Shown here piece after piece: positions 4,643-33,362 of a stretch of 64,000 nt of DNA. Origin of the DNA: Natronococcus occultus SP4 (lineage in GTDB: Archaea > Halobacteriota > Halobacteria > Halobacteriales > Natrialbaceae); contig NC_019974.1 in NCBI RefSeq assembly GCF_000328685.1, positions 2,409,001-2,473,000 on the forward strand, given 5' to 3'. Position numbers and translations under genes: made by a program. Under the pieces are notes generated by a model, which was given only the letters and a program-made list of their open reading frames with translations, was not told where the DNA came from and made no database searches. How positions within the stretch are numbered: the stretch's first letter is position 1; the number at the start of each line of letters is the position of its first letter.

Positions 4643-4682
4643 AATACGACTGGAAGCGTGCTGGGTCGGAAGAATTCGGTCG

Positions 4683-4690
4683 GATTTAAT
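4683..4690 (+). promoter_or_regulatory. TATA-like element for the P-loop kinase gene
   Basis: ATTTAATA lies about 27 nt upstream of the GTG at 4714 on the plus strand. This spacing supports the GTG as the true, leaderless start. Confidence 0.5.
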
Positions 4691-4713
4691 ACCAGTACGA
4701 CAGACCACATCCT

Positions 4714-5232: not shown

Positions 5233-5301
5233 GTCTGAGATCGGTTCCCAGTCGACACCGAGACCATCGCGGCTAAGAGTCCGGTCCGCCGACTGTCGGT
5301 C

Positions 5302-7030: not shown

Positions 7031-8704
7031 ATGGCACAACAGCAGATGGGCAACCAGCCCCTTATCGTTCTCTCGGAGGACAGCCAGCGAACGTCCGGTA
7101 AGGACGCTCAGTCGATGAACGTCCAGGCCGGCAAGGCGGTCGCCGAGTCGGTACGGACCACACTCGGTCCCAAGGGGATGGACAAGATGCTCGTCGACTC
7201 CTCGGGCAACGTCATCGTCACCAACGACGGCGTGACGCTGCTCTCGGAGATGGAGATCGACCACCCCGCAGCGGACATGATCGTCGAAGTCGCCGAGACC
7301 CAGGAGGACGAGGTTGGCGACGGTACCACGAGCGCCGTCGTCGTCGCCGGTGAACTCCTCAGTCAGGCCGAGGACCTCCTCGACCAGGACATCCACGCGA
7401 CCACCCTCGCCCAGGGGTACCGCCAGGCCGCCGAGGAGGCCACGGAGGCCCTCGAGGAGATCGCCGTCGACGTCGACGAGGACGACGACGAGATCCTCCA
7501 CCAGATCGCCGCGACGGCGATGACCGGCAAGGGCGCCGAGAGCGCCCGCGACCTGCTCGCCGGACTCGTCGTCGACGCCGTCCAGTCGGTCGCCGACGAC
7601 GACGAGATCGACACGGACAACATCAAAGTCGAGAAGGTCGTCGGCGGCTCGATCGAGAACTCCGAGCTCGTCGAGGGCGTCATCGTCGACAAGGAACGGG
7701 TCTCCGAGAACATGCCGTACTTCGCCGAGGACGCCAACGTCGCGATCGTCGACGGCGACCTCGAGATTCAGGAGACCGAGATCGACGCCGAGGTCAACGT
7801 CACCGATCCCGACCAGCTCGAGCAGTTCCTCGAGCAGGAAGAACAGCAGCTCCAGGAGATGGCCCAGAAGGTCGCCGACGCTGGCGCCGACGTCGTCTTC
7901 GTCGACGGCGGCATCGACGACATGGCCCAGCACTACCTCGCACAGGAGGGCATCATCGCCGTTCGTCGCGTCAAGTCCAGCGACCAGAGCCAGCTGGCCC
8001 GCGCGACCGGCGCCTCCCCCGTCACCAGCGTCGACGACCTGACCGAGGACGACCTCGGCTTCGCCGGCAGCGTCGCCCAGAAGGAGATCGCCGGCGACCA
8101 GCGCATCTTCGTCGAGGACGTCGACGACGCCAAGGCCGTCACCCTCATCCTGCGCGGTGGCACCGAGCACGTCATCGACGAGGTCGACCGTGCCATCGAG
8201 GACTCGCTGGGCGTGGTCCGGACGACCCTCGAAGACGGCAAAGTCCTCGCGGGCGGCGGCGCCCCCGAGGTCGAGCTCTCGCTTGCCCTGCGGGATTACG
8301 CCGACTCCGTCGGCGGGCGCGAGCAGCTGGCCGTCGAGGCGTTCGCGGACGCCCTCGAGGTCATCCCGCGCACGCTCGCGGAGAACGCCGGTCTCGACCC
8401 CATCGACTCGCTGGTCGAGCTGCGCGCCGACCACGACGGCGGCAACGAGGCTGCCGGACTGGACGCCTTCACGGGCGACACGATCGACATGGGCGAGGAA
8501 GGCGTCTACGAGCCGCTGCGAGTGAAGACCCAGGCGATCGAGTCCGCCACCGAGGCTGCCGTCATGCTGCTGCGCATCGACGACGTCATCGCCGCGGGCG
8601 ACCTCGCGGTCGCCGACGACGATGATGACGAGGAGATGCCGCCAGGCGGCGGTATGGGCGGCGGCATGGGCGGCATGGGTGGCGGTATGGGCGGCATGAT
8701 GTAA
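7031..8704 (+). CDS. Thermosome subunit (group II chaperonin)
   Basis: This 557-residue ATP-dependent protein-folding subunit of the double-ring chaperonin shows [20 protein letters not shown] near residue 40, [15 protein letters not shown] near residue 95, [12 protein letters not shown] near residue 410 and a C-terminal [13 protein letters not shown]-type tail reaching into the ring cavity. Length and ends fit a complete haloarchaeal subunit. Which paralogue (ThsA, B or C) it is cannot be settled alone. It is monocistronic, with its own TATA box and a hairpin right after the stop. Confidence 0.95.
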
Positions 8705-8706
8705 GC

Positions 8707-8723
8707 GAGGTTCGAAGAACCTC
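8707..8723 (+). terminator. Hairpin after the thermosome stop codon
   Basis: GAGGTTC-GAA-GAACCTC, a perfect 7-bp stem with a 3-nt loop, begins three bases after the TAA at 8702-8704. It is followed by a short A/T stretch rather than a long U run, so this may be a terminator or a 3'-end stabiliser. Confidence 0.4.
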
Positions 8724-8883
8724 AACTATTCGAGCGGGGAGTGTGCGACCCGCGAGGGTCGGATCGGCCCGCTCGGCCACCCACCCATCCGTTCGCGTAT
8801 CGTCTTCGACCGATCGTCGGCCCACACGTCGATTTCTTTCGCCGCTTGTCCCGACAGCCGCGGGTACGCTCGACAGTTAGCAC

Positions 8884-8892
8884 GACTTAAGT
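8884..8892 (+). promoter_or_regulatory. TATA-like element of the ornithine cyclodeaminase-family gene
   Basis: ACTTAAGTA lies about 26 nt upstream of the ATG at 8916, consistent with a leaderless transcript. Confidence 0.5.
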
Positions 8893-8915: not shown

Positions 8916-9908
8916 ATGCAGACGCTTCTCCTGGACAGCGACGACGTCGACGAGCACGCGCGGATGGCGGACGTCATCGGTGCGGTCGAGGACGCCTTCG
9001 GCGCCTACGAGCGCGGCGACGCCCAGATGCCGGCCAAATCCTACATCGACCTCCCCAAGTACAACGGCGACTTCCGATCGATGCCCGCCTATCTGGACGC
9101 GGGCGAGTGGGACGCGGCGGGCGTCAAGTGGGTCAACGTCCACCCCGACAACCCCGAGGACCACGATCTGCCGACCGTGCTGGGGACGATGATCTACTCC
9201 GACCCCGAGACCGCTTCGCCGCTGGCGATCATGGACGGAACCGCGCTGACGATGAAACGAACGGGGGCGGCGGCGGCCGTCGCCACCGACTACCTCGCCG
9301 TCGAAGACGCCACGTCGATGGGACTCATCGGGGCGGGCGTCCAGTCTTACACCCAGCTCGACGCGATCAGCGCGATCCGTCCGATCGAGGAGGTCGTCGT
9401 CAGCGACCTCGACGACGACCGCGTCCAGCGGTTCATCGACGCCTACGACGACGAGTTCGACGTCCGCACGGGCTCGATCTCCGAGGCGGGACACTGCGAC
9501 GTCCTCTCGACGGTGACGCCGGTCCGAGATCCCGTCGTCGGCCTCGAGGACGTCGGTGACCACACCCACATTAACGCTATCGGCGCCGACGCCGAGGGGA
9601 AACACGAGCTGTCCGACGAGCTGCTGCTCGAATCGACCGTCGTTATCGACGATCACAAACAGTGTACCCACTCCGGCGAGGTCAACGTCCCCTACAACGA
9701 GGGGACGCTTACGGACGACGATATCTACGGCGAGATCGGCGAACTCGTCGTCGGCGAGAAGGCGGCCCGCGAGGACGACACCGGCGTCACGGTCTTCGAC
9801 TCCACCGGGCTCGCGATCCAGGACGTCGCGGCGGCCCGCGTCGTCTACGAGGACGCCCGCGAGCACGAGGCCGGTTTCGACTTCGGACTGATTCACACCG
9901 ACCGGTAG
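8916..9908 (+). CDS. Ornithine cyclodeaminase / archaeal alanine dehydrogenase family protein
   Basis: This is a 330-residue NAD(P)-binding enzyme of the mu-crystallin fold. The N-terminal half has MPAKSYIDLPKYNGDFRSMPAY and KWVNVHP, the catalytic lysine region of the family. The Rossmann part shows SMGLIGAGVQSYTQLDAI (GxGxxx) near residue 135 and a DVLSTVTPVRDPVV loop. Members act as ornithine cyclodeaminase, alanine dehydrogenase or imine reductase; the exact substrate cannot be assigned. It is a single gene, ending 57 bp from the convergent sugar porter stop. Confidence 0.85.
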   Translation: MQTLLLDSDDVDEHARMADVIGAVEDAFGAYERGDAQMPAKSYIDLPKYNGDFRSMPAYLDAGEWDAAGVKWVNVHPDNPEDHDLPTVLGTMIYSDPETASPLAIMDGTALTMKRTGAAAAVATDYLAVEDATSMGLIGAGVQSYTQLDAISAIRPIEEVVVSDLDDDRVQRFIDAYDDEFDVRTGSISEAGHCDVLSTVTPVRDPVVGLEDVGDHTHINAIGADAEGKHELSDELLLESTVVIDDHKQCTHSGEVNVPYNEGTLTDDDIYGEIGELVVGEKAAREDDTGVTVFDSTGLAIQDVAAARVVYEDAREHEAGFDFGLIHTDR

Positions 9909-16505: not shown

Positions 16506-17375
16506 CTAGGAGAGATCGGCGCTACGGAATCGGAGGTAGCCGACCGCGAGCGGGACAACCGTCCACAGGACGAGTACCGCTGCCAGAAACGCCGGTTCAT
16601 GAACGAGGGCATCCGTCGCTCCGGACGGTGTCTGTTCGGCCTGCGTCGCGGACGCTCCGTCCTCGGTCACCGTGATCGCGATCTGACTCGCTTCGGGGAG
16701 CAACACGTCGGCGCTCGTTCCCAGCACGGTCAGTGGGTTGAGGTGGTCAACGACGGCGAGCCACGTCGGAGGGTCCGCACCGGGAAACTCCCGGGTGACC
16801 ACGTAGTGGATCCCGTCGATGACGTACGACCAGAGAACCGTCGCAAGGAGAAACCCACCGACGGCGACGCTAATCGCCCGGGTCCGCGTGTCGACAATGG
16901 CCGAAATCGCGATCGCGATCGCAACGATCGCCGCCGCCGACAGCAACACGAATAGGACGTACGCCGCGATCGGAACGAGTGGCGGAACACCAACCGTTGC
17001 GACGATAAGACCGACGGCGGTCAGGAACCCGCCGAGGATCGCAACCGAGAGCACCGCTGTCCGCCCGAGGAACTTGCCGAGGATAACGTCCCGTCGCGAG
17101 TGTGGCAGTCCGAGCAGGAATCTAAGGTTCCCCGACTCACGCTCTCCTACGATCGCCTGATAGCCGAGGAGGAGTCCAAGCATCGGAAGAACGATCTCCG
17201 TCGCCGGCCCCTCGAGAAAGCGCGCCGCGAGTTTTGGGTCCGGGTCCTCGACGACCGTGACGACGATGGCCTGCGTGAGGGCAATCATTCCGAGAAAGAT
17301 CACGGTGGCGACCCACAGCGCCCGCGAACGCACGGCGTCGGCGAACTCCTTGCGTGCGACGTCAGCAACTGTCAT
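16506..17375 (-). CDS. ABC-2 type exporter permease (NosY-like), end of CPBP operon
   Basis: This 289-residue integral membrane protein opens with VADVARKEFADAVRSRALW, the usual first cytoplasmic segment of ABC-2 permeases. About six hydrophobic segments follow, with a large external loop between residues 190 and 255 (VTREFPGADPPTWLAVVDHLNP and onward). GERESGNLRFLLGLPHSRRDVILGK is the conserved coupling segment. Its start overlaps the upstream ATPase stop by 4 bp, so the two form one exporter. Substrate is unknown; the CPBP gene upstream suggests a peptide or lipid-like cargo. Confidence 0.85.
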   Translation of the reverse strand: MTVADVARKEFADAVRSRALWVATVIFLGMIALTQAIVVTVVEDPDPKLAARFLEGPATEIVLPMLGLLLGYQAIVGERESGNLRFLLGLPHSRRDVILGKFLGRTAVLSVAILGGFLTAVGLIVATVGVPPLVPIAAYVLFVLLSAAAIVAIAIAISAIVDTRTRAISVAVGGFLLATVLWSYVIDGIHYVVTREFPGADPPTWLAVVDHLNPLTVLGTSADVLLPEASQIAITVTEDGASATQAEQTPSGATDALVHEPAFLAAVLVLWTVVPLAVGYLRFRSADLS

Positions 17376-18286
17376 CGATTCGCCTCCGTGACACAGTCCT
17401 CGAACAGCGACTCGAGCGACGGCTCCTCGGTTGTGAAGTCCTTAATTGTCGTGTATGCTTCAACCGTCTGTATGACCTCCGCCTTCGAGGTATCCGTTGA
17501 GAGCGATACTTCCAATCGGCCGTTGAGAACTGTACACGCCGTAACTCCCTCGAGCGATTCGACGTCCGCTACGAGCTGCGACGATGTGGCGTCGACGGAG
17601 ATTGCTAATTCGACTGCAGGTCCGATCTCGGATTTCAGCTCATCGAGCTTACCGCTCGTTAGTAACTTGCCGTCAACGAGAATACCGACCCGATCGCATA
17701 CGGCTTCGACCTGCTCAAGAAGGTGACTTGAGAAAAAGACGGTTGTGCCTCGATCCCGCTCCTCGAGGACGAGTCGTCTGAGCAGCTGAATTCCTGCCGG
17801 ATCGAGTCCACTGGAAGGTTCGTCGAGTACGAGCAGTTCGGGCTCACCGACCAATGCTAGTGCCAGTCGTAATCGCTGTTTCATTCCCGTCGAGTACTCG
17901 CCGACTGGCTGTCGTACTGCGGTCGTTTCGAGGCCAACCCGATCGGCCAATTCATCGGGATCGTCGTCCGATCCCGTCGAGTCGATTGCGAAACTGAGGT
18001 GCTTCCGACCCGAGAGTCGGTCGTACAGCCGACACGCCTCCGGTAGTACCCCAACCCGGTGTTTGAGTTCGACTCCGTCCTCGCGGACGTCTTTGCCGAA
18101 GATCCGGGCAGCTCCTGCTGTCGGATGTACGTACGAAAGCAGCATCGCAATCGTCGTCGATTTGCCGGCCCCGTTCGGTCCCAAAAATCCGTATACCTCT
18201 CCTCTATCTACCGCAAGGTCGATCTCCGAAACGACCGTCTGTGGTCCGTACCGCTTCGTCAACTCGTTCGTCCGAATTGCACTCAT
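17372..18286 (-). CDS. ABC-2 type exporter ATPase
   Basis: This is a 304-residue ABC ATPase of the CcmA/NatA type. I use the ATG at 18286 (MSAIRTNELTKRYG), where homology begins. Walker A is GPNGAGKSTT near residue 40, signature EYSTGMKQRLRLALAL, Walker B LLVLDEPSSGLDPAG, and H-loop FFSSHLLEQVE. The last 90 residues form a small extra domain with DATSSQLVADVESLEGV. An A/T-rich stretch upstream (ACAAATAAGTACTATAGG near 18310-18328) could be its own promoter, since 58 bp separate it from the CPBP gene. Codon use is visibly less G+C-rich than flanking core genes. Confidence 0.9.
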   Translation of the reverse strand: MSAIRTNELTKRYGPQTVVSEIDLAVDRGEVYGFLGPNGAGKSTTIAMLLSYVHPTAGAARIFGKDVREDGVELKHRVGVLPEACRLYDRLSGRKHLSFAIDSTGSDDDPDELADRVGLETTAVRQPVGEYSTGMKQRLRLALALVGEPELLVLDEPSSGLDPAGIQLLRRLVLEERDRGTTVFFSSHLLEQVEAVCDRVGILVDGKLLTSGKLDELKSEIGPAVELAISVDATSSQLVADVESLEGVTACTVLNGRLEVSLSTDTSKAEVIQTVEAYTTIKDFTTEEPSLESLFEDCVTEANR

Positions 18287-18344
18287 CAGATTATCAGTAG
18301 TTAGCCTATAGTACTTATTTGTGAAAATTATTACTATCGAGAAA

Positions 18345-19211
18345 TTAGTGTAGGAATTTTCCCTCATATCCAACTAACACGGCGACTGATGCGACTATTA
18401 AGACGACTAGTACGAACGGAGAGGCAGTAACGGCTGCCAGGTCACCACCGAAAAGGAACGGCGACTCTGTGTACTGATAATCAACTATTGCTTCGTCCGG
18501 TTGTCGTTCGGCTGACTCGATCGAAACGACCCGGGTGTGAAACGCTGTGTTCCAGATTGCGTGGAGCGCGACTGCGTTCCAGATGTTTTTCGTGTAGTAC
18601 GTAACAAGTGCGTACAGCAATCCCGCCGCGGTTGCGACCAACACGTAAAGTTCCGATGCACCGACATCTGCTACCTTTCCGTTGTGGAGAAGACCGAACA
18701 ACACCGATGTCAGTACGATCGCTTCTTTCCAGCCCCAGTGATGGCCGACGAACGAGAGCAGATATCCACGAAATACGAGTTCTTCTGTTATCGCGGCGAG
18801 TAATCCTAACAGCACCGCGCTAAGTAATACAGTCAATAGAACGTGAGGCTCTCCAACGTCTATTGAGAGTGCTCCCGGTAGCATTCCGACGGCACTGACG
18901 ACGACAAACCCGACGAGAACGGCTCCGAACCCTACCCAGCGAAGGATCGATCGACCCGGAATCGTCACAAAGATTGCCTCGTGTGGAATTCCAACGGCTC
19001 TCGAAGCGAGTAAGTAAATGACTAGTGCAGCCGGAATTCCGATCACTGCGCCCTCTGCTTCCGAAAGAAGCCAGGGTATCGATAAGTAACTGTTCGCGAC
19101 AATATGGGATCCCACCAGTATCACGAACATGGCCGCGAGCAGGGCCATTGACATCGTTGCGACTTTCCACTCCTCGATAGATTCAATACTCTTGTCGTAT
19201 TCTGAACTCAT
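18345..19211 (-). CDS. CPBP-family intramembrane metalloprotease
   Basis: This 288-residue membrane protein is read from the ATG at 19211 (MSSEYDKSIESIEEW), giving a short acidic cytoplasmic N-terminus before about eight hydrophobic segments. All catalytic motifs of the CAAX protease/bacteriocin-processing family are intact: EELVFRGYLLSFVGHHWGW (EExxxR), SVLFGLLHN (FxxxH) and NAVALHAIWNTAF (HxxxN). Family members cut prenylated proteins, process peptides or give bacteriocin self-immunity. Here it lies 112 bp downstream of a 25-codon ORF and 58 bp upstream of an ABC exporter, all on one strand, which favours a peptide-related role (inference). G+C is low for this genome. Confidence 0.85.
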   Translation of the reverse strand: MSSEYDKSIESIEEWKVATMSMALLAAMFVILVGSHIVANSYLSIPWLLSEAEGAVIGIPAALVIYLLASRAVGIPHEAIFVTIPGRSILRWVGFGAVLVGFVVVSAVGMLPGALSIDVGEPHVLLTVLLSAVLLGLLAAITEELVFRGYLLSFVGHHWGWKEAIVLTSVLFGLLHNGKVADVGASELYVLVATAAGLLYALVTYYTKNIWNAVALHAIWNTAFHTRVVSIESAERQPDEAIVDYQYTESPFLFGGDLAAVTASPFVLVVLIVASVAVLVGYEGKFLH

Positions 19212-19323
19212 ACGCTCGGTGTCATTGTACTCGATCTCTGCCGATCGGTGGTCACTTTTCCGACAACAGCTTGTCACCACCAAAACGGGTTACTGATGTG
19301 GCTGTTCCTCCAGGGTCGTCGCT

Positions 19324-19401
19324 CTAGAAGGATCCGATATCGATACTGAAGTTGGCACTCAGCGTGTCGCCATCGTATCCTGCTTCGACGTATTGTAGCA
19401 T
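19324..19401 (-). CDS. Candidate small peptide ORF (25 codons) upstream of CPBP protease and exporter
   Basis: From the ATG at 19401 the minus strand reads MLQYVEAGYD and onward to IDIGSF, then TAG; an in-frame GTG at 19413 would add four residues. A good TATA box (TTTATAAG, 19439-19446) lies about 27 nt before that GTG, so transcription should begin almost at the ORF. The peptide is acidic, has no Cys and has no typical signal sequence. It is the first ORF of the strand carrying the CPBP protease and exporter, in the place where precursor peptides usually sit in such loci. I know no homologue; it may be a leader peptide or chance. Confidence 0.4.
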   Translation of the reverse strand: MLQYVEAGYDGDTLSANFSIDIGSF

Positions 19402-19438
19402 GGGTATCAACACCCGAGTCGAAATGGACGCGTTATAA

Positions 19439-19446
19439 CTTATAAA
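19439..19446 (-). promoter_or_regulatory. TATA box for the small ORF/CPBP/ABC transcription unit
   Basis: Minus-strand TTTATAAG within the near-palindromic tract TTATAACTTATAAA (19433-19446). The tract reads as a TATA-like element on both strands, so it could drive transcription either way. Confidence 0.55.
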
Positions 19447-19552
19447 TCTAAAATAGGTGAGATGCCCGGAACGACACGCTTCATACGAAGCGATTCAACT
19501 CGATCAAGCCTACCAGTAGGTGGTTCGGTACAAATCGATCAAAGTGAGCGAG

Positions 19553-19560
19553 AATATATG
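19553..19560 (+). promoter_or_regulatory. TATA box for the divergent ABC operon
   Basis: AATATATG lies about 29-36 nt upstream of the ATG at 19589 on the plus strand, correct spacing for a short-leader transcript of the ATPase-permease pair. Confidence 0.5.
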
Positions 19561-19588
19561 TAGGATCACGAGGCACACGCTCAGCTGT

Positions 19589-20602
19589 ATGCCCAAGAAC
19601 GTGGATTCGGGGACGCGCCAGATTATCTCCGCCGAGAATCTGGTCGCAACGTACGATCGAAGTGAAGGAACGGTCCGTGCGATCGACGATATCGATCTAG
19701 AGATTCAGTCGGGAAGTATCGTCGGACTGATTGGCCCAAACGGTGCCGGGAAGACGACGTTACTCGAGACGATGCTCGGGTTGGTTTCTCCGACAAGAGG
19801 CCGAGTTCAGATCAACGGTATCGACGTATCGAAACACCCTCATCGCGCTCACACGACTGTGGCCGCGGTGCTGGAAGGAGCTCGAAGTACGTACTGGCGG
19901 CTCACGGTTCGTGAAAACCTCGAGTTTTTCAGCCGACTGAACGCCGCCGAGCACGACGACGAACACGAGCGAATTCGGAGGACGCTCGATCAGTTGGCTC
20001 TCACTGATCTCTCGGGGACCGTCGTGAACGACCTCTCCCGAGGACAGAAACAACGCGTCTCACTTGCCGCTGCACTGATACAGGATGTCGACGTGTTGAT
20101 TCTTGACGAACCACTGCTCGGGCTCGATACCGAGACGTCACTCGAATTCCAGGCATCGCTGGTCGAACTCGCGGAACGCCGAGAGCTAACGATCGTGCTT
20201 TCGAGCCACAATCTCGACGCAGTCGAATCGATCTGTGATCGAGGCGTCATCCTCGAGAACGGACGCATCGTGGCTGACGACGCCATCGAGAATTTACTCG
20301 AAGTCTTCCAAACGGAGGTCTACGAACTGGTTATCGAAGGACAGCTCCCTGCGGCCACACGAAACGAAATCGAGCGGACCTACGACCTCGTCTCCACCAC
20401 CGAGCTTCGAGATCGAACGACGCTCGAAGTCGCGGTTCCGGACACCAACCGTATCCACGATCTGACCGGAACAGTGGTCGCTCAGGGCTCGCAAATCGAA
20501 TCGGTTCGGATCCGCGAAGGAAGCCTCGAGACAGTTCTCGAATCACTCGCGTTCGATCAGTCGCGACTCGACGCTCAACGTAGACCGCGGAGCGTATCAT
20601 GA
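19589..20602 (+). CDS. ABC-2 type exporter ATPase (second, divergent)
   Basis: This 337-residue ABC ATPase starts at ATG 19589 (MPKNVDSGTRQIISAENLV). Walker A is GPNGAGKTTL, signature NDLSRGQKQRVSLAAAL, Walker B DVLILDEPLLGLDTETS, and H-loop IVLSSHNLDAVESI. The roughly 100-residue tail after residue 240 is a small substrate- or subunit-interaction domain. Its stop overlaps the permease start by 4 bp. It shares the intergenic region with the oppositely oriented small ORF/CPBP/ABC unit, so the locus has two exporters side by side. Substrate is unknown. Confidence 0.88.
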   Translation: MPKNVDSGTRQIISAENLVATYDRSEGTVRAIDDIDLEIQSGSIVGLIGPNGAGKTTLLETMLGLVSPTRGRVQINGIDVSKHPHRAHTTVAAVLEGARSTYWRLTVRENLEFFSRLNAAEHDDEHERIRRTLDQLALTDLSGTVVNDLSRGQKQRVSLAAALIQDVDVLILDEPLLGLDTETSLEFQASLVELAERRELTIVLSSHNLDAVESICDRGVILENGRIVADDAIENLLEVFQTEVYELVIEGQLPAATRNEIERTYDLVSTTELRDRTTLEVAVPDTNRIHDLTGTVVAQGSQIESVRIREGSLETVLESLAFDQSRLDAQRRPRSVS

Positions 20603-21402
20603 ACGGCGCCAGCTCAAGGACACCAGCGATGCTCGGATCGGCGCTGTATGCACTTGTGCGGCGAGATATCCTTATCATGTGGCGGTACCCGTTGAACACT
20701 CTTGGTGCAATACTGGGGCTGTACGCGCTGTTTCTGCTCGTCTACGTAGGCGGACGGTCGCTCGTCGGTCCGGGATTCGGTGAGACGCTCGGCGCACTTA
20801 TCGTCGGTTTCTTCCTGTTCATCATGGGCAACGCCTCCTACCAGTCGCTCGCCGGACTGTTCGCGACGGAGGCGAAGTGGGGCACGCTGGAGCAGCTATA
20901 TCTCTCACCGATCGGGTTCGGCTCCGTCGCGGTGCTAGTGTCGATCAGCTCGCTGCTCGTGACGTTCGCGATCGGATTCGTGATGCTGGGCTTGATGCTC
21001 CTGACGACTGGAGAGTCGATCTCACTCGATCTCCTCAGTATCGTTCCAGTCGTCGTCCTCGCGCTGCTGTCGACGCTCGGAATCGGACTACTACTCGGCG
21101 GTGCTACCGTCCGCTACAAGAACGTGAGTTCGATCTTCGGGCTCGTCAAGTTCGTCCTCGTCGCCTGTATCGCACTTGGTCCTGCTTCGGCGGAGGTCTT
21201 CGCACTGAAAGCACTTCCACTCACTCAGGGGAGCTACCTGCTCCAGCGCGTTATGAACGAAAACGTTCGCCTCTGGGAGATCGAGCCCACTCAGATCGCG
21301 GTGCTGGCGATCGTGGGTGTCGTGTACTTTCTCGTCGGCTACGTCCTCTTTCAGTACTGCACCGATCGTGCCCGTTCGAGAGGTGTAATGGGCCACTATT
21401 GA
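20599..21402 (+). CDS. ABC-2 type exporter permease (second, divergent)
   Basis: This 267-residue protein has about six membrane segments. The N-terminus LYALVRRDILIMWRYPLNTLG and the coupling segment LFATEAKWGTLEQLYLSP are typical of ABC-2 permeases. GLLLGGATVRYKNVSSIFGL and the C-terminal FQYCTDRARSRG complete the pattern. It starts at ATG 20599, overlapping the ATPase stop, and forms the exporter with that gene. It has no large external loop, unlike the permease at 16.5 kb, so the two exporters are not recent duplicates. Confidence 0.87.
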   Translation: MNGASSRTPAMLGSALYALVRRDILIMWRYPLNTLGAILGLYALFLLVYVGGRSLVGPGFGETLGALIVGFFLFIMGNASYQSLAGLFATEAKWGTLEQLYLSPIGFGSVAVLVSISSLLVTFAIGFVMLGLMLLTTGESISLDLLSIVPVVVLALLSTLGIGLLLGGATVRYKNVSSIFGLVKFVLVACIALGPASAEVFALKALPLTQGSYLLQRVMNENVRLWEIEPTQIAVLAIVGVVYFLVGYVLFQYCTDRARSRGVMGHY

Positions 21403-21802
21403 ACACCGTACTATTCGTTTGTACATGCCTCTGCGCCGGTGAGTGCTACCTCGGGGCCGATGCTATGTGAACGGAGTGGGAAGTCATAGTCAACAGGGTT
21501 CTTACACCGGCGTACGGACTGCTCAACACCGATGAAGACATTTCTGCTCTATACGAAAACAGTCTCGACACTACCCGCTCCGGGATCTCAAATAACGTAT
21601 GGAAGCCAAGGGCCCGAGTTAAGGCGGCGTTTTATATAGTACGAGGGTTGAGACGAGGTTAATTTCGGAAGATAGCCGAACTCAATTCCTGATACGGCCA
21701 ATCCAAGAGTGCGGAACTACTGACACGGGGACGGCGGTCGACGGTGGAGGCCGACACGACGAGGGAACAAAACGACCGCAGGTCCATAGTACTCCTCGGC
21801 AG
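21403..21802. other. Intergenic region between ABC permease and SWIM gene
   Basis: No convincing gene. It contains the degenerate tRNA-Cys 3'-end repeat at 21593-21629 and a TATA-like TTTTATATAG just after it (21631-21640). A 35-codon ORF that runs through the repeat has no coding support. Confidence 0.6.
21593..21629 (-). repeat. Degenerate copy of the tRNA-Cys 3' end (distal att site)
   Basis: Ungapped, 30 of 37 positions match 23772-23808, which holds the T-arm, the 3' acceptor strand and 11 nt of 3' flank of tRNA-Cys. The first 22 positions (TAACGTATG, two mismatches, AGCCAAGGGCC) are nearly identical; the T-arm part has decayed. Orientation is the same as in the tRNA, as expected when an element integrates into a tRNA 3' end and leaves a partial copy at its far side. 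Confidence 0.65.
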
Positions 21803-22603
21803 ATGAACATCGACGAAAAGACCATCCGAAATCTGTGTACTGATCCCGCGTTCGAACGGGGACAGAAGTACCGCAACGAGGGACGCATCCAGCGAATCGA
21901 ACGATTCGACGTCGTCGCCACCGCCATCGTGCAAGGGTCGTCCCAGTACGACGTGACCGTCGAACGAGGAGAAGGGACCATCGACGCCCGGTGTACGTGT
22001 CCCTACGATGGCGCTGGCGAATGCAAACACGTTGTCGCGGTATTGCTGGACGTCGCCGCCGACACACCCCGAGACGAGAGCGAACGTGTGGAGTCAGCAC
22101 TCCAAAACGTCTCGGCCGACGGTCTCCGGACATTCCTACGCGACGTACTCGCCGAACATCCAGATCTCCGTGATCGGTTCCTCGCGCGCTTTGGCGACAC
22201 CTGCAAATCTGTCGAAGAATATCGCGTCGAAATCGAGCAACTGTTCGACCGGCACGCACAGGACTATCCGGTCGTCACCGACGCCATCGACTTCTCGCAT
22301 TTCTTCGAGTTGGCTGAGCGGTACCACGAGCGCGAGCGCTACCTAAAAGCCGCGACCGTCTATCGCGCGCTGTTCGAGGGGATCGACAATAACGGAGTCC
22401 GTATCGATGCCGCGTACGACCACTACGCTAAAGCCTTGCAGTCCGCCCTCGATGGATACGTCAAGTGCGTGCTCGCGGCTGATCCTGACCAAGGCGAGTT
22501 CGAGAAATACATCAGTGTGCTAGAAGACCAAGCGGCATCGGAACATTCAGCTAACACCGAGCAGTTCTACCGAGCGATCGACGATCTCGAAGAGCGACGA
22601 TGA
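21803..22603 (+). CDS. SWIM zinc-finger protein
   Basis: This 266-residue protein starts at ATG 21803 (MNIDEKTIRNLCTD). The SWIM motif is ARCTCPYDGAGECKHVVAVLL near residues 63-82 (CxC..CxH), preceded by the usual beta-strand segment YDVTVERGEGTI. The remaining 180 residues are helical, with FFELAERYHERERYLKAATVYRALFEG like a tetratricopeptide-type helical repeat. SWIM domains bind DNA or proteins; in archaea their roles are largely unknown. It is cargo of the tRNA-Cys element; no helicase partner (a common SWIM companion) is adjacent. Confidence 0.8.
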   Translation: MNIDEKTIRNLCTDPAFERGQKYRNEGRIQRIERFDVVATAIVQGSSQYDVTVERGEGTIDARCTCPYDGAGECKHVVAVLLDVAADTPRDESERVESALQNVSADGLRTFLRDVLAEHPDLRDRFLARFGDTCKSVEEYRVEIEQLFDRHAQDYPVVTDAIDFSHFFELAERYHERERYLKAATVYRALFEGIDNNGVRIDAAYDHYAKALQSALDGYVKCVLAADPDQGEFEKYISVLEDQAASEHSANTEQFYRAIDDLEERR

Positions 22604-22844
22604 CGGCCGAGTCCCCCGCTCGGGAAATGATTCGGCCACTCTGTACCGAAAGATCTCTGGAGCAGGGGACCAACCACTGGAATCAAAGTCTGATTTGAGA
22701 GTTGACCACCGACTCCTGGTGAGGCCACTTCTTCACGTCGCTACGCTCGTTCAGTCGTCGCCTCGTCGTACATAGCAAACACGAAGGGATTGTTCAGTCC
22801 CGACGATTTATGCGCCCACCTGCAAACGAACCTCTATAGGCGGT

Positions 22845-23437
22845 ATCGAGCTACGAAACGGAACACTCGTCGTCGAACGTGAACCGAATCAGCTCGACGA
22901 GCTGACGATTGGGTTCTCCGAGATTCTCGGTCAGTTCGGCATCAAGCACGTCTACATCGCAGGGTACGTCTCCATACTCGCTGGTCGGGCACGCTCTACC
23001 GAAGACGTCGACGTCCTCATCGAACAGATCGACGAGGAGACTGCAGACGAACTCGCAGAGACGCTTGCCGAGAACGGGTCCTGGGGACCGACAATGCCAC
23101 TCACATCGATGCACGAGATGCTCGACAACGGGGACAACATTTGGGTCGCACCAACAGATCAGGTCACGCCGTACCTCGAAGTCAAGTTCGCGCGCAACGA
23201 GTTCGACCGCGGGTCCCTCAAAAACGCACTCACAGCCCGAATCGGTGGCAAGACGATTCCGATAGGTCCCCTAGAGCTCCAGATCGCGTACAAACTCTAC
23301 CTCGGTGCGCAAAAGACGTCGAGGATGCAGTCCACCTCTACACGCTCTTCGAGGAAAGTCTTAGTGTGCCCCGCCTCGAAGAGTGGGTAACGCGACTCGA
23401 CGTCGAAGACGAATATGAGCGACTCAAACGCGCATGA
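22845..23437 (+). pseudogene. Nucleotidyltransferase (AbiEii/DUF6036-like), start lost and frameshifted
   Basis: The reading frame from 22845 gives IELRNGTLVVERE, then FGIKHVYIAGYVSILAGRARSTEDVDVLIEQ, which is the nucleotidyltransferase motif with D-x-D, and ends in IGPLELQIAYKLYLGAQK. At the A-run 23311-23314 one base appears to be missing; the next frame continues KDVEDAVHLYTLF to LEEWVTRLDVEDEYERLKRA. No ATG, GTG or TTG occurs between the upstream in-frame stop and residue one; ATC stands where ATG is expected. Both lesions argue for a dead gene, though a programmed shift or sequencing error at the A-run is possible. Confidence 0.72.
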
Positions 23438-23678
23438 GGATCTGGATGCGAAGCACGAACGCAACCGTGAGCAGCGCTTCGAAGGCATCAAGCGCTGGGT
23501 CGAATACATCAAGTCCGAATCCCCCGAGACGTGGGGACCACAACAGAACGCGGTCGTCAACGACCAGCTTGATGCGGCCCAAAGCGTACAGACGTCGGCG
23601 GCCCACCAGCAGCACGTGGAAGACGTAGCGGCGGAGATCATCGAAGCGGGCGACAAGTCCGACACTGATTCGAAGTAG
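23415..23678 (+). CDS. Small hydrophilic partner protein of the nucleotidyltransferase
   Basis: This 87-residue protein starts at ATG 23415, overlapping the end of the nucleotidyltransferase frame by 23 bp, which implies a two-gene unit. It is highly charged and predicted helical: EDLDAKHERNREQRFEGIKRWVEYIK, then QNAVVNDQLDAAQ. I recall similar short ORFs behind haloarchaeal nucleotidyltransferase genes of this type, in arrangements like two-component toxin-antitoxin pairs, but no function is known to me. It appears intact although its partner is broken. Confidence 0.6.
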   Translation: MSDSNAHEDLDAKHERNREQRFEGIKRWVEYIKSESPETWGPQQNAVVNDQLDAAQSVQTSAAHQQHVEDVAAEIIEAGDKSDTDSK

Positions 23679-23782
23679 ACGATCTCCACGCGGGAGATTC
23701 ATCTCGGGAGACATACATAGCCTCTCGAAATAAGAGGTATTGCCAAAATGTAGTTGTCCTGGGCTTTAGGGTAACGTATGAG

Positions 23783-23858
23783 AGCCAAGGGCCGGATTTG
23801 AACCGGCGGTAGGCGGCTCTGCAGGCCGCTGCGTTCGGCCGGACTCTGCCACCTTGGC
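23783..23858 (-). tRNA. tRNA-Cys (GCA)
   Basis: The minus strand folds as a 76-nt cloverleaf: acceptor GCCAAGG/CCTTGGC, anticodon arm GCGGC-CTGCAGA-GCCGC with anticodon GCA, T arm GCCGG-TTCAAAT-CCGGC, and discriminator U73, which is required for Cys. CCA is not encoded. It is the distal gene of the rRNA operon (16S-Ala-23S-5S-Cys) and has its own TATA-like box. Its 3' end is the integration target of the adjacent element. Confidence 0.95.
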
Positions 23859-23883
23859 GCGGTTCTCCCTTATCACTGCGCTC

Positions 23884-23894
23884 GTTTAAATATA
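23884..23894 (-). promoter_or_regulatory. TATA box directly upstream of tRNA-Cys
   Basis: Minus-strand TATATTTAAAC ends 26 nt before the tRNA 5' end at 23858. It suggests tRNA-Cys can be transcribed independently of the rRNA operon. Confidence 0.55.
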
Positions 23895-24034
23895 GCGGTA
23901 CGGAGCGGCTGTGACTTCCGTTATGGTTCGATCTGTCTGTAACTATCGTACAGTGCAGGAGACTACGGACATGTTCTCAGTAAATACGGAACGCCCACAC
24001 AGCGGGCGCTGTGCGGGCGTGAATCAGTATGAGT

Positions 24035-24156
24035 GGTGGCGGCGAATCGGATTTCCCAGAGGGTCTCCCACTCCAGTACTGACCGAAACGCAGGCGAGCT
24101 TATCTTCCGTGTTCGGGATGGGTACGGGAGGCACCTCGCCGCTGTGGCCGCCGTAA
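24035..24156 (-). rRNA. 5S ribosomal RNA
   Basis: The minus strand begins TTACGGCGGCCACAGCGG and contains CCCGTACCCATCCCGAACAC, the conserved loop of archaeal 5S rRNA, ending near CGCCGCCAC, which pairs with the 5' end. About 122 nt; ends are accurate to a few bases. Confidence 0.92.
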
Positions 24157-24208
24157 TGCCGATCGACGGAGTCGAACCGTCGTCAAACCCTAATCGGTCA
24201 ACGACCGT

Positions 24209-24256
24209 AATGTACGTGTAGTCCAGTTTGCGTCCGGACCCGTTTCCGGGCACTGT
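24209..24256 (-). other. 3' arm of the 23S processing stem
   Basis: The sequence here (GTACGTGTAGTCCAG on the plus strand, continuing through GGACCCGTTTCCGGG) is the near-complement, read in the transcript, of 27222-27268 in the 23S leader. The two arms pair around 23S. Imperfections in the stem fit the bulge-helix-bulge cut by the archaeal splicing endonuclease EndA. Confidence 0.7.
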
Positions 24257-24274
24257 GATCCGAATGCGAATATG

Positions 24275-27192
<2,918 letters not shown>

Positions 27193-27221
27193 GTTCGTCG
27201 GATCAGGGTTGCAAAGCAACC

Positions 27222-27268
27222 GTGTAGTGACCCGGGAACGGGTCCAGTGGACGCCTGGACTACACGTA
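27222..27268 (-). other. 5' arm of the 23S processing stem
   Basis: The tract containing AGTGACCCGGGAACGGGTCC and CTGGACTACACGTAC is the partner of the 3' arm at 24209-24256; together they give a long, slightly interrupted helix enclosing 23S. Confidence 0.7.
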
Positions 27269-27423
27269 CACACGGTCTCATCTGCACGCCGGTAGACGGC
27301 CGGCCTGCATTAACCCTTCCCAGCCACACTTGCGCGGGCTGGTGCATCGGTTTGCGTCTGCGGATTTGATCGAAAGTTCCTGCCCCACTTAAGGGACACG
27401 ATCTTCGATCGCTTCCGCAATCA

Positions 27424-27495
27424 TGGACCCACAGGGATTCGAACCCTGGGCATCCTCCTTGCAAAGGAGGCACTCTCCCACTGAGCTATGGGCCC
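27424..27495 (-). tRNA. tRNA-Ala (TGC) in the 16S-23S spacer
   Basis: The 72-nt cloverleaf on the minus strand begins GGGCCCATAGCTCAGTGG. The anticodon arm CTCC-TTTGCAA-GGAG gives anticodon TGC, the T loop is GGTTCGAATCC, and discriminator is A. The G-U or mismatched pair near the acceptor base is typical for tRNA-Ala identity. Its place between 16S and 23S is the standard haloarchaeal arrangement. A short CTCTCTAC/GTAGAGAG hairpin lies between it and the 16S processing stem. Confidence 0.96.
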
Positions 27496-27535
27496 ACTCT
27501 CTACAGGCCGGATGTGGCCCGTAGAGAGCGTAGAT

Positions 27536-27602
27536 GGTGTGAGCCTCGGTAGTTCAAGGGTGCCCGGTCGGCCCGTGATGGGCGCGAACCGAACGTGGAC
27601 TG
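27536..27602 (-). other. 3' arm of the 16S processing stem
   Basis: GTGAGCCTCGGTAGTTC (plus strand, 27539-27555) and CCGAACGTGGAC further in match the 5' leader arm at 29186-29257 as complements in the transcript, forming the 16S precursor stem with a probable bulge-helix-bulge. Confidence 0.7.
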
Positions 27603-27658
27603 CGTGGCGCAACGCGCCACGAGTTTGGTGGGCCACCCCGTCGGGGTGGTCCCGGTCT

Positions 27659-29128
<1,470 letters not shown>

Positions 29129-29185
29129 GCTCTTTCCCCCAAAGTGGGGGAGGTTGGCGGAGTATGAATCGAATCACACTCACTT

Positions 29186-29257
29186 GAATGGGTCCACGTT
29201 CGGATCGGCCGCGATCGCAGACCGATCGGGCGTCACCGAACTACCAAGGCTCACATC
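29186..29257 (-). other. 5' arm of the 16S processing stem
   Basis: On the minus strand GTGAGCCTTGGTAGTTC and CCGAACGTGGACCC complement the 3' arm at 27536-27602 with one G-U pair in the outer part. Confidence 0.7.
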
Positions 29258-29299
29258 AGACCTCATCTTGCGGCGGACCGCAGGGGTGAAGTCCTCATC

Positions 29300-29346
29300 T
29301 TCTTCGTACTAAATCAGAGTACCCGGTTACTACATAAGGCCTTCGA
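29300..29346 (-). promoter_or_regulatory. rRNA operon promoter
   Basis: Minus strand TTCGAAGGCCTTATGTAG followed by GGGTACTCTGA resembles the haloarchaeal rRNA promoter pattern (TTCGA element, TTATGTA TATA box, then a purine start about 25 nt on). The leader to 16S would be about 180 nt. Confidence 0.65.
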
Positions 29347-29523
29347 ACCCAACCCTCGCCGTCAGGCACTCACAAACACGTCGCCGTCGTGCGGTCTTCC
29401 TGTGAACTGAGTGGTAGTTTCTGAGTGGCCGTCGAACTTAATGGTGTGTCCGCGCACCCGAAATGAGGACGAATCGAATTCGAATCAAACTGAGAAACCG
29501 TCTCCTCGTTATACGAACCGCGC

Positions 29524-30330
29524 CTATCTATTCGAGTTACGTCCCGACTCAGCCGGCTGGGGATCGACGTGAGGACTCGCGACGAGATCCGAAAACGGCT
29601 GGTCGTCGAGCCATTCGAGCAGGGCGACGAGCTGTTCGGTCGCGGCCTCGAACAGTCGCTCACCGATTTCGGGCGTCGCGTCCGTCTGATCGCCGAACAC
29701 GCCGTTCGGGCTGTTCTCGATCGCATCGTAGAAGATGCGGGCGCCGTGGACGAGTTCGGCCTCGTAGTCGAAGATCGCGCCGCCGTCGCGGGCGTCCTCG
29801 AGTCGATCGTCGTGGACGAGTTCCTCGGCGATGTGCATGATCATCGCCGTCTCCTTGGGGCCGCCGTGAGGACCCGGCGTCTCGAAGACGTCCTCGATAA
29901 GCCCGGGGATCGATTCGTCCCACATCCACTCGATAGCGAAGGCAGTCTCGTCCTCATGGAGTCGGCGGCCGACCTCACGAAGGTGCTGGACGTTCCCGCC
30001 GTGAGCATTAACGTAGACGATGCGATCGATCCCATGGTACGTGAGGTTTCGCGAGAGATTCTCCACGTAGTCCCGAAAGACCGGCGGATCGACCCACATA
30101 GTGCCGTGGAACTGTCGGTGGTGGGAGCTCACGCCGACCGGAATCGGCGGGGTACAGAGATAGCCGGTCCGATCGGTCGCCGCCCGAGCGAGCGCCTCCG
30201 CGATCAGGTAGTCGGTTCCCTCCGGAAGGTGAGGACCGTGTTGTTCGGTCGAGCCCAGGGGGACGACCGCGAGCGACTCGTCGGCGACGTAGTCGGCCAG
30301 ATCTGGCCACGACTGGTGTGGAAGGAACAT
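29524..30330 (-). CDS. Creatininase-family amidohydrolase (ArfB-like candidate)
   Basis: This 268-residue metal-dependent amidohydrolase has the creatininase-family ligands: LAVVPLGSTEQHGPHLPEGTD (E and H), GVSSHHRQFHGTM, YVNAHGGNVQHL, and a FETPGPHGGPKETAMIM loop with the late Glu. Archaeal members include ArfB, which deformylates a pyrimidine intermediate of riboflavin/F420 synthesis, so that is the most likely specific role, with moderate certainty. It starts at ATG 30330 and lies just upstream of the rRNA operon on the same strand. Confidence 0.82.
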   Translation of the reverse strand: MFLPHQSWPDLADYVADESLAVVPLGSTEQHGPHLPEGTDYLIAEALARAATDRTGYLCTPPIPVGVSSHHRQFHGTMWVDPPVFRDYVENLSRNLTYHGIDRIVYVNAHGGNVQHLREVGRRLHEDETAFAIEWMWDESIPGLIEDVFETPGPHGGPKETAMIMHIAEELVHDDRLEDARDGGAIFDYEAELVHGARIFYDAIENSPNGVFGDQTDATPEIGERLFEAATEQLVALLEWLDDQPFSDLVASPHVDPQPAESGRNSNR

Positions 30331-30454
30331 ACTGTACTCTTACACCGAGCCGTCAAAACGTTGTGTTACTCCGTTCGGTTCTGCAGCTGCGGGAACGGGT
30401 GCCGGTAGCGGAGCGATAGTAAGCCTTAATAGTAAACGGCCGCCGATTTAATAT

Positions 30455-30892
30455 ATGGCAGTCGTCAGCGTCTCGATGCCGGACGAGCTTCTCGAGCGAC
30501 TCGACGAGTTCGCAGACGAGCACGGGTACACCGGCCGGAGCGAGGTCGTCAGGGAGGCCTCCCGCAACCTTCTCGGAGAGTTCGAGGACACCCGCCTCGA
30601 GGACCGGGATCTGATGGGAATCGTCACCGTTCTGTTCGACTACGAGACGACGACCGTCGAGGAACGGATGATGCAGCTCCGCCACGAACACGAGGACCTC
30701 GTCGCCTCGAACTTCCACAGCCACGTCGGCGACCACTACTGTATGGAGCTGTTCGTCCTCGAGGGACAGCTCGAGGATATCTCGACGTTCGTCGGGAAGA
30801 TCCGCGCGACGAAAGACGCGCTGACCGTCGACTACTCGGTGACCCCCGTCGACAGTTTCGATCCGATCTCGCAGGACGGCCACGGCCAGTAG
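30455..30892 (+). CDS. nikR: NikR-family nickel-responsive regulator
   Basis: This 145-residue protein has an N-terminal ribbon-helix-helix ([32 protein letters not shown]), then an ACT-like metal domain. All four NikR nickel ligands are at canonical spacing: His in LRHEHEDL, then HxH and x5-Cys in [14 protein letters not shown]. It should bind DNA when loaded with Ni(II). A TATA-like CCTTAATAGT lies 25-30 nt upstream, and a second A/T patch touches the ATG, allowing autoregulation. No nickel transporter or Ni enzyme is in the window, so targets lie elsewhere. Confidence 0.88.
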
Positions 30893-30933
30893 CGAACGCG
30901 TAGTTTTACTGGGATCCCCTCGTACTGACAGCC

Positions 30934-31311
30934 ATGTCTTACCGCAAGGTCAACTACGAGGACGTCGATCAGGTCTCGAGCGCGATGCACTTTCTGAGCG
31001 ACCCGCTCGAGACCGAGCAGGTCGGCGTCACGGTCGCGCGCTGTGATCCGGGCTGGAAGAGTCAGCCACACGACCACGCCGACAACGAACACGAGGAAGT
31101 GTACGTCCTCATCGAGGGGGAGGCGACGGTCGTCGTCGACGACGATCCCGTGCGGATGGAAACCGGCGACGCGCTGTGGATCCCGCCGGAGTCGACCCGC
31201 CAGATCCGCAACGGCGACGAGGAGAGCGCGTTCGTCCTCGTCAGCGCACCCGGGATCGCCGACGAGGACGACGTGGACGGCGAGTGGCTCCTCTCGGGGT
31301 TCGCAGGGTAG
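30934..31311 (+). CDS. Cupin-domain protein
   Basis: This 125-residue single cupin has metal motif 1 SQPHDHADNEHEEVYVLIEG (HxH..E) and motif 2 near METGDALWIPPESTRQIRNG, where the usual His is replaced (TRQI). Such haloarchaeal proteins are of unknown function. It starts at ATG 30934, 41 bp after nikR, with its own TATA-like AGTTTTA about 28 nt upstream, so cotranscription with nikR is possible but not required. Confidence 0.8.
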   Translation: MSYRKVNYEDVDQVSSAMHFLSDPLETEQVGVTVARCDPGWKSQPHDHADNEHEEVYVLIEGEATVVVDDDPVRMETGDALWIPPESTRQIRNGDEESAFVLVSAPGIADEDDVDGEWLLSGFAG

Positions 31312-31355
31312 CTGCGGGACCGAACGTACGGAAGCGGGTGGCGACGGCTGGGTGG

Positions 31356-33362
31356 CTACACCCGATCCGCACTGGTCGCGGGCGCGTCGGTGTCGAGGGC
31401 CGTCGCCGTCGCGAGTCGGATCGCGTGGGGCCAGCCAAGCGGCGTCGCGCTGTCGGGGGTTCCGTCGTCGAAGAACTGTTCGGGGAGGAAGTCGCCGTCG
31501 CCGCGAAGCGGGCCGCCGGGGGCGACCAGCTCCAGGAGCGCCCGTGCGCGGGCGTCGAAGGTCGGGGCCGCGTCGTGGCCCGCCTCGGCGAGCAGCGTCC
31601 GCAGCTCTGTCGACGCGTGGGCGCCCCACGCGGTCGTCACCGTCCAGATCTTCGGCTCGTCCTGGTCGCTGCGCCGCCACGGATCGTCCTCGAACCGGGC
31701 GAGCCCCTCGACTGGACCCTCGGGATCGCGGTAGAGTCCCTCGATCGTCGTCTCGAAGTGTGAGACGAGTCGTTCGAGGCGGTCGGCGTCGACGCCGTCG
31801 ATCGCGGCGTACTCCCGGTGGGCACCAGCGAGCGCGAGCGTGCTCCCGTCGAGGCGCTCGTCGTGCTCGCCCGCGTCGAGCCGGAGCGCGTAACAGCCTC
31901 GGTCAGGGACCCACAGCGCGTCGAGTCCTTCGAACACCGCTTGCGCGCTCTCGCGCGCCCGCGCCGTAACGTCGTCCTCGAGGGGCGCCCGGGCGATCGC
32001 GGCGTAGGCTTCGAGGAAGGTCGCGGCGGTGTGGGTGAACCGACCGGTCATGTTCTCCCAGGCGTTCTGGACCTGTCCGGGGAGGCCGTCGTCCGCCAGG
32101 GAGGCGTCCAGCCCCTCGAGGGCGGCGAGGACGGCCTCCCGGACGCGCTCGTCGTCGCTGTCGATCTCTCGGAGGTAGGTCGCGAGGAAGGCCGCGACGC
32201 TTGCGGTCTGGTCGGCCTGGTAGTCGACCGAATCGCCCTCCTCGAGTCGGCCGTGGGCCCAGCCGGGTGCGAGGCTGCCGTCGTCGGGCCAGACCCGGTG
32301 GGGCCAGGTGCCGTCCTCGAGCTGGGTCTCGGCGTAGAAGTGCGCGCTCGCGGCGTGCCACTCGTCGAGGCCGAGCCCCGCCCGTCGGTCGGCCGCGAGC
32401 AGGAAGCCGGCGATCTCGGCGTCGTCGCGGAACCAGGTGTAGCCGTATCCGCCGGAGTGGCGGTAGAACGGGTCGAACTCGGGGCCGGCGATCCGGGCCC
32501 CCGACGGCGCCCGCAGCAACGAGAGCGCGCGCAGGTCGGCGACGGCGCCGTCGACGGACGTCTCTGCGGGGAACCGGTCCCGGGCCTGTCGTCGCCCGGC
32601 CTCGAGCAGCGCCTCGGGGTCGGCAAAGTCGGCGACGTCCCGGCGAGCGCGCTCGAGGACGTCCTCGCGATCCCCGGTCGAGAGCACCGTCGCAATCGTC
32701 GCGGTCGGCTCGGACCCCGAGAGCTCGACGTCGGCGACGACGATCGGACTCAGGCGGTCCTCCTCGTAGCGGTCGTCGCCCTCGTCCCGGGGGAAGGGCG
32801 CGGGCTCGTCGGCGAGGACGTCCTCGAATCGCACCGACGGGTGGCCCCGTATCGAGAGGTCGCCCGAGGCCGCGAGGACGTCCCGTTCGCTCCGATGGTA
32901 GACCTCGACGGCGTCGCCGTGCCGGAGCTGGCCGATCCTGTTTTCCTGGCCGTCGGGAGCGAACTCGACGCAGGCGCGGAGCCGTGCGTCGGTCGCGGTC
33001 GGCTCCTCGAGAACGAACTGCGTGAGATGCGTTCGGCCGAGGGTCAGATCGTACTGTCGGCAGGCGTAGTCGTCGTCCTCGTGGCGGGTTTCGACGACCG
33101 CAGTGTCGTCGACGTACGATTGGGCAGCGTCGCCGAACCAGACGACCTCGTCGTCGAGTTCGAGTCCGAACCGGGAGCGGTCGATCCCCGAGAGTCCCGA
33201 GAGCGGCGCGGAGTAGTCCCGGAGCGAGCCGTCCGGGGCGACGTGGACGAGGCGATCGTCGAGCCCTGAGAACAGTCCCGACGTCGAGCGGCGCTCGCCG
33301 GGAAACAGGCGCGGGTCGTCCCGGGAGCGCTTGACGTCGTCGAGAGCCGTAGCGAGGTTCAT
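31356..33362 (-). CDS. Glycoside hydrolase family 15 enzyme (glucoamylase-like)
   Basis: This 668-residue protein is started at ATG 33362 (MNLATALDDVKRSRDD); the longer open frame upstream has no homology. The N-terminal beta-sandwich spans about residues 1-260. The alpha/alpha-barrel shows GYGYTWFRDDAEIAGFLLA and TWPHRVWPDDGSLAPGW, and the C-terminal catalytic-base region is FLPEQFFDDGTPDSATPLGWPHA. It releases glucose from alpha-1,4-glucans. No signal peptide is seen, so an intracellular role on glycogen or imported oligosaccharide is likely. It is divergent from the KDPG aldolase gene and fits that sugar pathway. Confidence 0.87.
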   Translation of the reverse strand: MNLATALDDVKRSRDDPRLFPGERRSTSGLFSGLDDRLVHVAPDGSLRDYSAPLSGLSGIDRSRFGLELDDEVVWFGDAAQSYVDDTAVVETRHEDDDYACRQYDLTLGRTHLTQFVLEEPTATDARLRACVEFAPDGQENRIGQLRHGDAVEVYHRSERDVLAASGDLSIRGHPSVRFEDVLADEPAPFPRDEGDDRYEEDRLSPIVVADVELSGSEPTATIATVLSTGDREDVLERARRDVADFADPEALLEAGRRQARDRFPAETSVDGAVADLRALSLLRAPSGARIAGPEFDPFYRHSGGYGYTWFRDDAEIAGFLLAADRRAGLGLDEWHAASAHFYAETQLEDGTWPHRVWPDDGSLAPGWAHGRLEEGDSVDYQADQTASVAAFLATYLREIDSDDERVREAVLAALEGLDASLADDGLPGQVQNAWENMTGRFTHTAATFLEAYAAIARAPLEDDVTARARESAQAVFEGLDALWVPDRGCYALRLDAGEHDERLDGSTLALAGAHREYAAIDGVDADRLERLVSHFETTIEGLYRDPEGPVEGLARFEDDPWRRSDQDEPKIWTVTTAWGAHASTELRTLLAEAGHDAAPTFDARARALLELVAPGGPLRGDGDFLPEQFFDDGTPDSATPLGWPHAIRLATATALDTDAPATSADRV

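Follow-up and report, generated by a model that had tools for sequence, protein, structure and literature searches.

Very few ribosomally synthesized peptides are known from archaea, and the validated ones in the literature that we consulted are either products of LanM synthetases or proteolysed secreted proteins. Here, we analyzed a 64,000-nucleotide window of Natronococcus occultus SP4 DNA (contig NC_019974.1, positions 2,409,001 to 2,473,000), in which positions 16506 to 21402 carry a 25-codon gene, a gene for a CPBP-family intramembrane protease, and two ATP-binding cassette (ABC) pairs, AtpA/PermA (pair A) and AtpB/PermB (pair B). From comparisons of sequence and gene order, we consider it fairly likely that these genes form a cassette dedicated to a short ribosomal peptide with no apparent modification, serving its production or its export and the producer's immunity. 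The peptide probably acts as a secreted signal or as an antimicrobial and would represent a previously undescribed family. Such a locus was not described in the literature that we searched.

The closest archaeal systems are the haloarchaeal class II lanthipeptide clusters, such as that of archalan (PMC10105419, PMC12144867), which likewise encode ribosomal peptides with linked transporters of the AtpB/PermB family. Haloferax volcanii has served as a host for such archaeal lanthipeptides (PMC12144867). One lanthipeptide-type cluster in our genome set, that of G082 (L130), has both pair types, but the Natronococcus locus has no LanM, Cys-rich precursor, or leader and instead combines a CPBP protease with a Cys-free 25-mer. 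A class II lanthipeptide locus is defined by LanM (PF13575 plus PF05147) and a precursor with Ser/Thr and Cys; since PF13575 was absent from the focal genome and the other Natronococcus genomes and the peptide has no Cys, the locus does not belong to this class. In Bacillus subtilis, the yyd (epipeptide) and skf loci also bring together a short precursor, a membrane protease, and an ABC pair, and skf needs a radical S-adenosylmethionine (SAM) enzyme. The yyd locus needs the radical SAM enzyme YydG (PMC7026026), but no radical SAM gene (PF04055) was found within 52 kb of our locus, the nearest being 52 kb away, and so the locus is not of the epipeptide or skf type. The only YcaO gene of the genome lies 1.1 Mb off, which argues against a thiazole/oxazole-modified microcin (TOMM) or azole assignment. 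The original prediction for this DNA, made by a model from the letters alone, had seen no modification enzyme at the locus, and the absence of radical SAM, YcaO, and LanM genes nearby bears this out.

Other bacterial and archaeal systems resemble the locus in their transporters or their proteases. Staphylococcal PmtABCD uses two ATPases and two ABC membrane proteins to export short peptides, the phenol-soluble modulins, and to protect the producer (PMC5080381). However, the modulins are alpha-helical and their exporter forms one operon with a regulator and, as described, without a CPBP gene, whereas the Natronococcus 25-mers pattern as beta rather than helix. Moreover, the NCBIfam equivalog models for PmtA and PmtC gave 109 and 105 bits against cut-offs of 350 and 375, so these are not Pmt proteins. 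SilX-like CPBP/CAAX proteases of bacteriocin loci, including SilX itself at the streptococcal angicin locus, also adjoin a small secreted-peptide gene (PMC9298176), but the SilX-type precursors are bacterial class II bacteriocins, while here the peptide and the exporters both belong to archaeal families. Halocins, and secreted precursors that halolysins cleave (PMC12893001), are haloarchaeal antagonistic peptides that are freed by proteolysis, but the halolysin-cut precursors are larger secreted proteins processed by extracellular serine proteases, in contrast to a 25-mer with a dedicated intramembrane protease. In its workings the locus resembles the bacterial loci that export peptides or bacteriocins, and it has exporters in common with the haloarchaeal lanthipeptide clusters; since it fails the radical SAM, LanM, YcaO, and Pmt tests, we set it apart from the families that these tests define.

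The tiny open reading frame (ORF) reported in the original prediction is a real gene under purifying selection and not a chance reading frame. It lies at 19324-19401 on the minus strand and encodes MLQYVEAGYDGDTLSANFSIDIGSF, which had no match in Pfam or NCBIfam. When 125 Natrialbaceae genomes were searched with the peptide, homologues were found in seven of the eight other Natronococcus genomes, and all eight Natronococcus sequences are exactly 25 residues long from ATG to stop. Pooled over pairs among these eight, the ratio of nonsynonymous to synonymous differences per site (pN/pS) was 0.19 (0.096 versus 0.50 per site), compared to 1.2 and 4.1 for the other two reading frames of the same DNA. 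Variable columns were distributed 7/5/17 over codon positions 1/2/3, with 17 of 29 at the third position (binomial P 0.005), and identity across the ORF is 78-84%, against about 40-70% in the sequence on either side. Directly ahead of the gene, at 19402-19446 on the minus strand, the sequence and the eight-species alignment revealed a TATA-like TTTATAA box and then a GGGTG...ACCC block immediately before the ATG, which we infer to be a putative promoter and 5' leader. Within the subclade G094/G089/G093, peptide pN/pS was about 1, compared to 0.17-0.34 for the neighboring genes; the changes per pair (1-3.5 synonymous versus 6-10.5 nonsynonymous) are small counts, but they hint that the product diverges faster there.

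The peptide gene travels with its neighbors. Eight of nine Natronococcus genomes have the peptide, CPBP, and both ABC pairs together at a single chromosomal site, with an identical gene arrangement beside leuS-hsp20-bcp in all eight loci and with pheA as the right flank in the congener examined. The ninth genome, G092, has the unit replaced by about 4 kb of foreign DNA (L097:13700-17950) that carries a TnpB-like gene, a metallo-beta-lactamase (MBL)-fold-like protein, and a membrane protein, and only the C-terminal half of permA remains. A CPBP search of the Natrialbaceae set matched the same seven Natronococcus as the peptide search plus one more genus. G099, which belongs to another Natrialbaceae genus and has a CPBP 40% identical to the focal one, carries a single operon, pep-CPBP-atpB-permB-atpA-permA, at a different site, and G136, a metagenome-assembled genome of a different family, carries pep-CPBP-atpA-permA and then uvrA, and pair B is absent from the 16.6 kb examined there. 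Since G136 lacks pair B and the AtpB/PermB pairs elsewhere mostly stand alone, the core of the system consists of the peptide, CPBP, and pair A, to which pair B is accessory. The proposed joint occurrence of the two ABC pairs thus holds for eight of nine Natronococcus and G099 but not for G136 or for most AtpB/PermB pairs elsewhere. Likewise, a short ORF always upstream of the CPBP gene was found, directly upstream, in 10 of 10 loci having the peptide, but the distant G184 has CPBP-atpA-permA with no recognisable peptide. Searches of the order (392 genomes) and the class (391 genomes), in which the best six CPBP candidates per genome were scored, yielded no further members of the peptide-CPBP system. 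Across 84,980 species genomes, a scan that reaches close relatives best returned only Natronococcus-type close relatives and one remote Acidobacteriaceae stretch. The peptide-CPBP system is therefore rare.

The distant homologues show which features of the peptide are kept. The peptides of G099 and G136, MIFSFSVSYDGDRFSGSFAYSGSRL and MSFSVEYNGDRFSGSISYEGSRF, are encoded directly upstream of CPBP, share Y(D/N)GDxxSGS, and have a near-perfect Shine-Dalgarno sequence, GGAGGTGA, about 5-6 nt ahead of the start. When six-frame fragments of three distant loci were ranked with a Natronococcus-only profile, the G099 peptide came first (E 0.0024) and the G136 peptide second (E 0.24), and a profile including G099 but not G136 matched the latter at E 4e-8, 100 bp upstream of an independently found CPBP. 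Cys was absent from every peptide homologue, and no Sec/Tat-like signal was visible in the 25-mer. The Natronococcus peptide is acidic (-3 to -4) with near neutral hydropathy (grand average 0.1-0.3), and its last 13 residues alternate in hydrophobicity around a Y-D-G-D turn, a pattern that probably corresponds to an amphipathic beta-hairpin. The beta moment was exceeded by 1-2% of shuffles for Natronococcus and by 9-11% for G099 and G136, and in the latter two the helical moment is as high as the beta moment.

A separate resemblance emerged in other haloarchaea (L065, L070, L073, L079, L080, L081, and L084, near position 1501), where one conserved protein family ends in MLxSIEAxYDGDVRFADDLRTVEL, and this C-terminus of about 24 residues closely resembles the Natronococcus peptide over its first 12 residues. 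Weak peptide-profile matches in haloarchaeal ORFs of about 265-330 residues were rejected as homologues, and those read in frame are the C-terminus of this family. The resemblance may be coincidence or may hint at an origin of the peptide from a gene fragment; we take it as coincidence because only YDGD is common to the family and the G099 peptide.

The remaining genes of the unit encode a protease and two distinct transporters. CPBP (18345-19211, minus strand) matches PF02517 at 69.5 bits against a cut-off of 22.4, and its EExxxR, FxxxH, and HxxWN (HxxxN) motifs are invariant in nine homologues, which assigns it to the CPBP (Rce1-like) intramembrane glutamic proteases with all of the catalytic motifs first noticed. 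On the same strand, AtpA (17372-18286; PF00005) has a Walker A and signature invariant in nine homologues, and its gene overlaps by 4 nt that of PermA (16506-17375), an ABC-2 permease (PF12679, 147.7 bits) conserved in nine loci. Pair B is divergent, on the plus strand, with AtpB at 19589-20602 (PF00005, 113.6 bits, conserved start-codon context) and PermB, a membrane protein with no Pfam match, at 20599-21402. AtpA and AtpB share only about 30-35% identity, so neither pair is a duplicate of the other, in agreement with the original prediction. CPBP and PermA scored 51.9 and 22.6 bits against the NCBIfam ABC_perm_CPBP fusion NF041647 (cut-off 435) and are not members. In a sequence search of the PDB, PermB had no usable match and CPBP matched only Rce1, weakly (E 0.078), and AlphaFold2 models from shallow alignments were too poor to use (mean predicted local distance difference test 41 for PermB and 35 for CPBP). 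No relatives of CPBP were found in plasmids or viral contigs. The focal genome itself has ten CPBP-family genes (L001-L010), with a focal ABC match within 1.5 kb only at the focal CPBP.

By the homology of PermB, whose relatives adjoin LanM and YcaO genes, we place the focal AtpB/PermB in a haloarchaeal exporter family linked to loci for ribosomally synthesized and post-translationally modified peptides (RiPPs). The PermB profile matches 87 of the 125 Natrialbaceae genomes, and LanM synthetases (PF13575) occur in 12. At 8 of the 12 LanM loci a PermB/AtpB pair lies within about 7 kb, compared to an expectation of about 0.005 per locus (chance of 8/12, about 4e-16). The cluster of G082 (L130:161-9273) runs from three precursor ORFs with Cys-rich ends (161-358, 547-729, and 863-1048, plus strand) through pair A, LanM (3109-6369), and pair B to two lanthipeptide-like precursor ORFs on the opposite strand (8700-8891 and 9040-9273, minus strand). 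G086 also has LanM and both pair types. Pair-B loci of azole type accompany ThiF and YcaO genes in G011 (L141) and a ThiF-family gene in G029 (L133).

The 25-residue product carries no Sec/Tat-like signal and has no linked modifying enzyme. We propose that AtpA/PermA, joined by AtpB/PermB in Natronococcus and one relative, would export it and/or clear it from the membrane, protecting the producer. This role is suggested by the genetic linkage and by the association of AtpB/PermB with lanthipeptide and YcaO clusters. CPBP may act as an immunity factor that neutralises the peptide, or may trim it at or within the membrane, and the activity outside the cell would most likely be competition with, or signaling to, close relatives. 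Several findings weigh against this proposal. The peptide lacks a transmembrane segment and any known leader, such as one of the double-glycine type, and would therefore not readily be expected as the substrate of an intramembrane protease. The PermA family is very common (123 of 125 genomes) and most of the PermB-family pairs examined adjoin ordinary metabolic genes, meaning that ABC linkage alone is no proof of peptide cargo. A single clade of the LanM-linked PermBs and the focal PermB was not supported by the tree, over which the LanM-linked PermBs are scattered, although repeated use of the family by peptide clusters would produce such scatter. The G184 locus, as noted, keeps CPBP and pair A with no recognisable peptide. 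The original prediction had weighed a peptide with export and self-immunity against stress exporters with a protease. The co-travel of the peptide, CPBP, and both pairs favors the former, as does the RiPP-linked AtpB/PermB, while the separable pair B and the peptide-free G184 locus qualify it, and the prediction is thus supported in part. A stronger version, that this is the first archaeal unmodified, leaderless peptide signal or bacteriocin, in which a beta-hairpin of 23-25 residues has its own intramembrane glutamic protease and dual ABC-2 exporter as a counterpart of bacterial pheromone and bacteriocin loci, with exporters as in haloarchaeal lanthipeptides, is one that we advance only tentatively.

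Among other explanations, the 25-mer could be a small accessory subunit that, within the cell, attaches to CPBP or to one of the ABC permeases and regulates it or helps it assemble, with the complex exporting something else or coping with envelope stress. Bacteria do have small proteins that regulate membrane transporters, and the peptide co-occurs strictly with CPBP, but the known regulators are mostly single-pass membrane proteins, while this peptide is near neutral with no transmembrane stretch, and the pair-B family is linked elsewhere to exported-peptide genes, making a subunit unlikely. A regulatory leader peptide, whose translation would control the downstream CPBP-ABC genes in cis with no function outside, has in its favor that at every locus the ORF immediately precedes CPBP in the same orientation, separated by a short spacer, and that its length is typical of leader peptides. 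However, selection acts on the amino acids (pN/pS 0.19), YDGDxxSGS is kept across families, no stem is conserved in the spacer before CPBP (consensus energy -0.3 kcal/mol), and at no locus is the motif the single-amino-acid run of classical attenuators, and so we regard this explanation as quite improbable. Two general exporters and a protease that are neighbors by chance, with an ORF that has no role in them, would fit the frequency of both pair families as separate Natrialbaceae loci, but the same six genes stand together, rearranged, in G099 and were all lost jointly in G092, and the peptide is under selection; the G099 operon largely refutes this idea, which is very unlikely. Least probable is a defence locus in which CPBP and the ABC pairs would clear away antimicrobial peptides from outside, with the 25-mer serving as sensor or decoy, since, although ABC-2 pairs often confer peptide resistance and CPBP proteins such as SilX occur near streptococcal bacteriocin genes, the locus has no linked regulator gene and PADLOC returned no match at it beyond generic ATPases.

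The base composition and flanks of the unit agree with what had been described from the letters. The unit is less G+C-rich (52-59%) than the genes to its left (62-68%), and in the congeners its G+C content at third codon positions is 0.55-0.85, compared to 0.86-0.93 for bcp and leuS. Because the congeners show the same difference, low G+C is a property of the unit and not a sign of recent arrival. The unit was also said to abut an integrated element, and synteny with seven congeners indeed ends directly after PermB, where foreign-looking DNA starts; pheA was not found within 19 kb after PermB in the focal species. The lower-G+C stretch to the right of PermB, within 21402-40000 of the window, includes a SWIM zinc-finger protein (21803-22603) and a tRNA-Cys (23782).

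Our preferred reading, an export-and-immunity or production cassette for a short peptide, has consequences beyond this locus. As a compact candidate without a linked modifying enzyme, the system might allow a synthetic 25-mer to be assayed directly. The PermB family, for which Pfam has no model, marks lanthipeptide and YcaO loci and might also mark further haloarchaeal peptide loci, offering a handle for genome mining. If the reading is true, a conserved Natronococcus peptide exporter would make peptide communication or competition among archaea directly testable.

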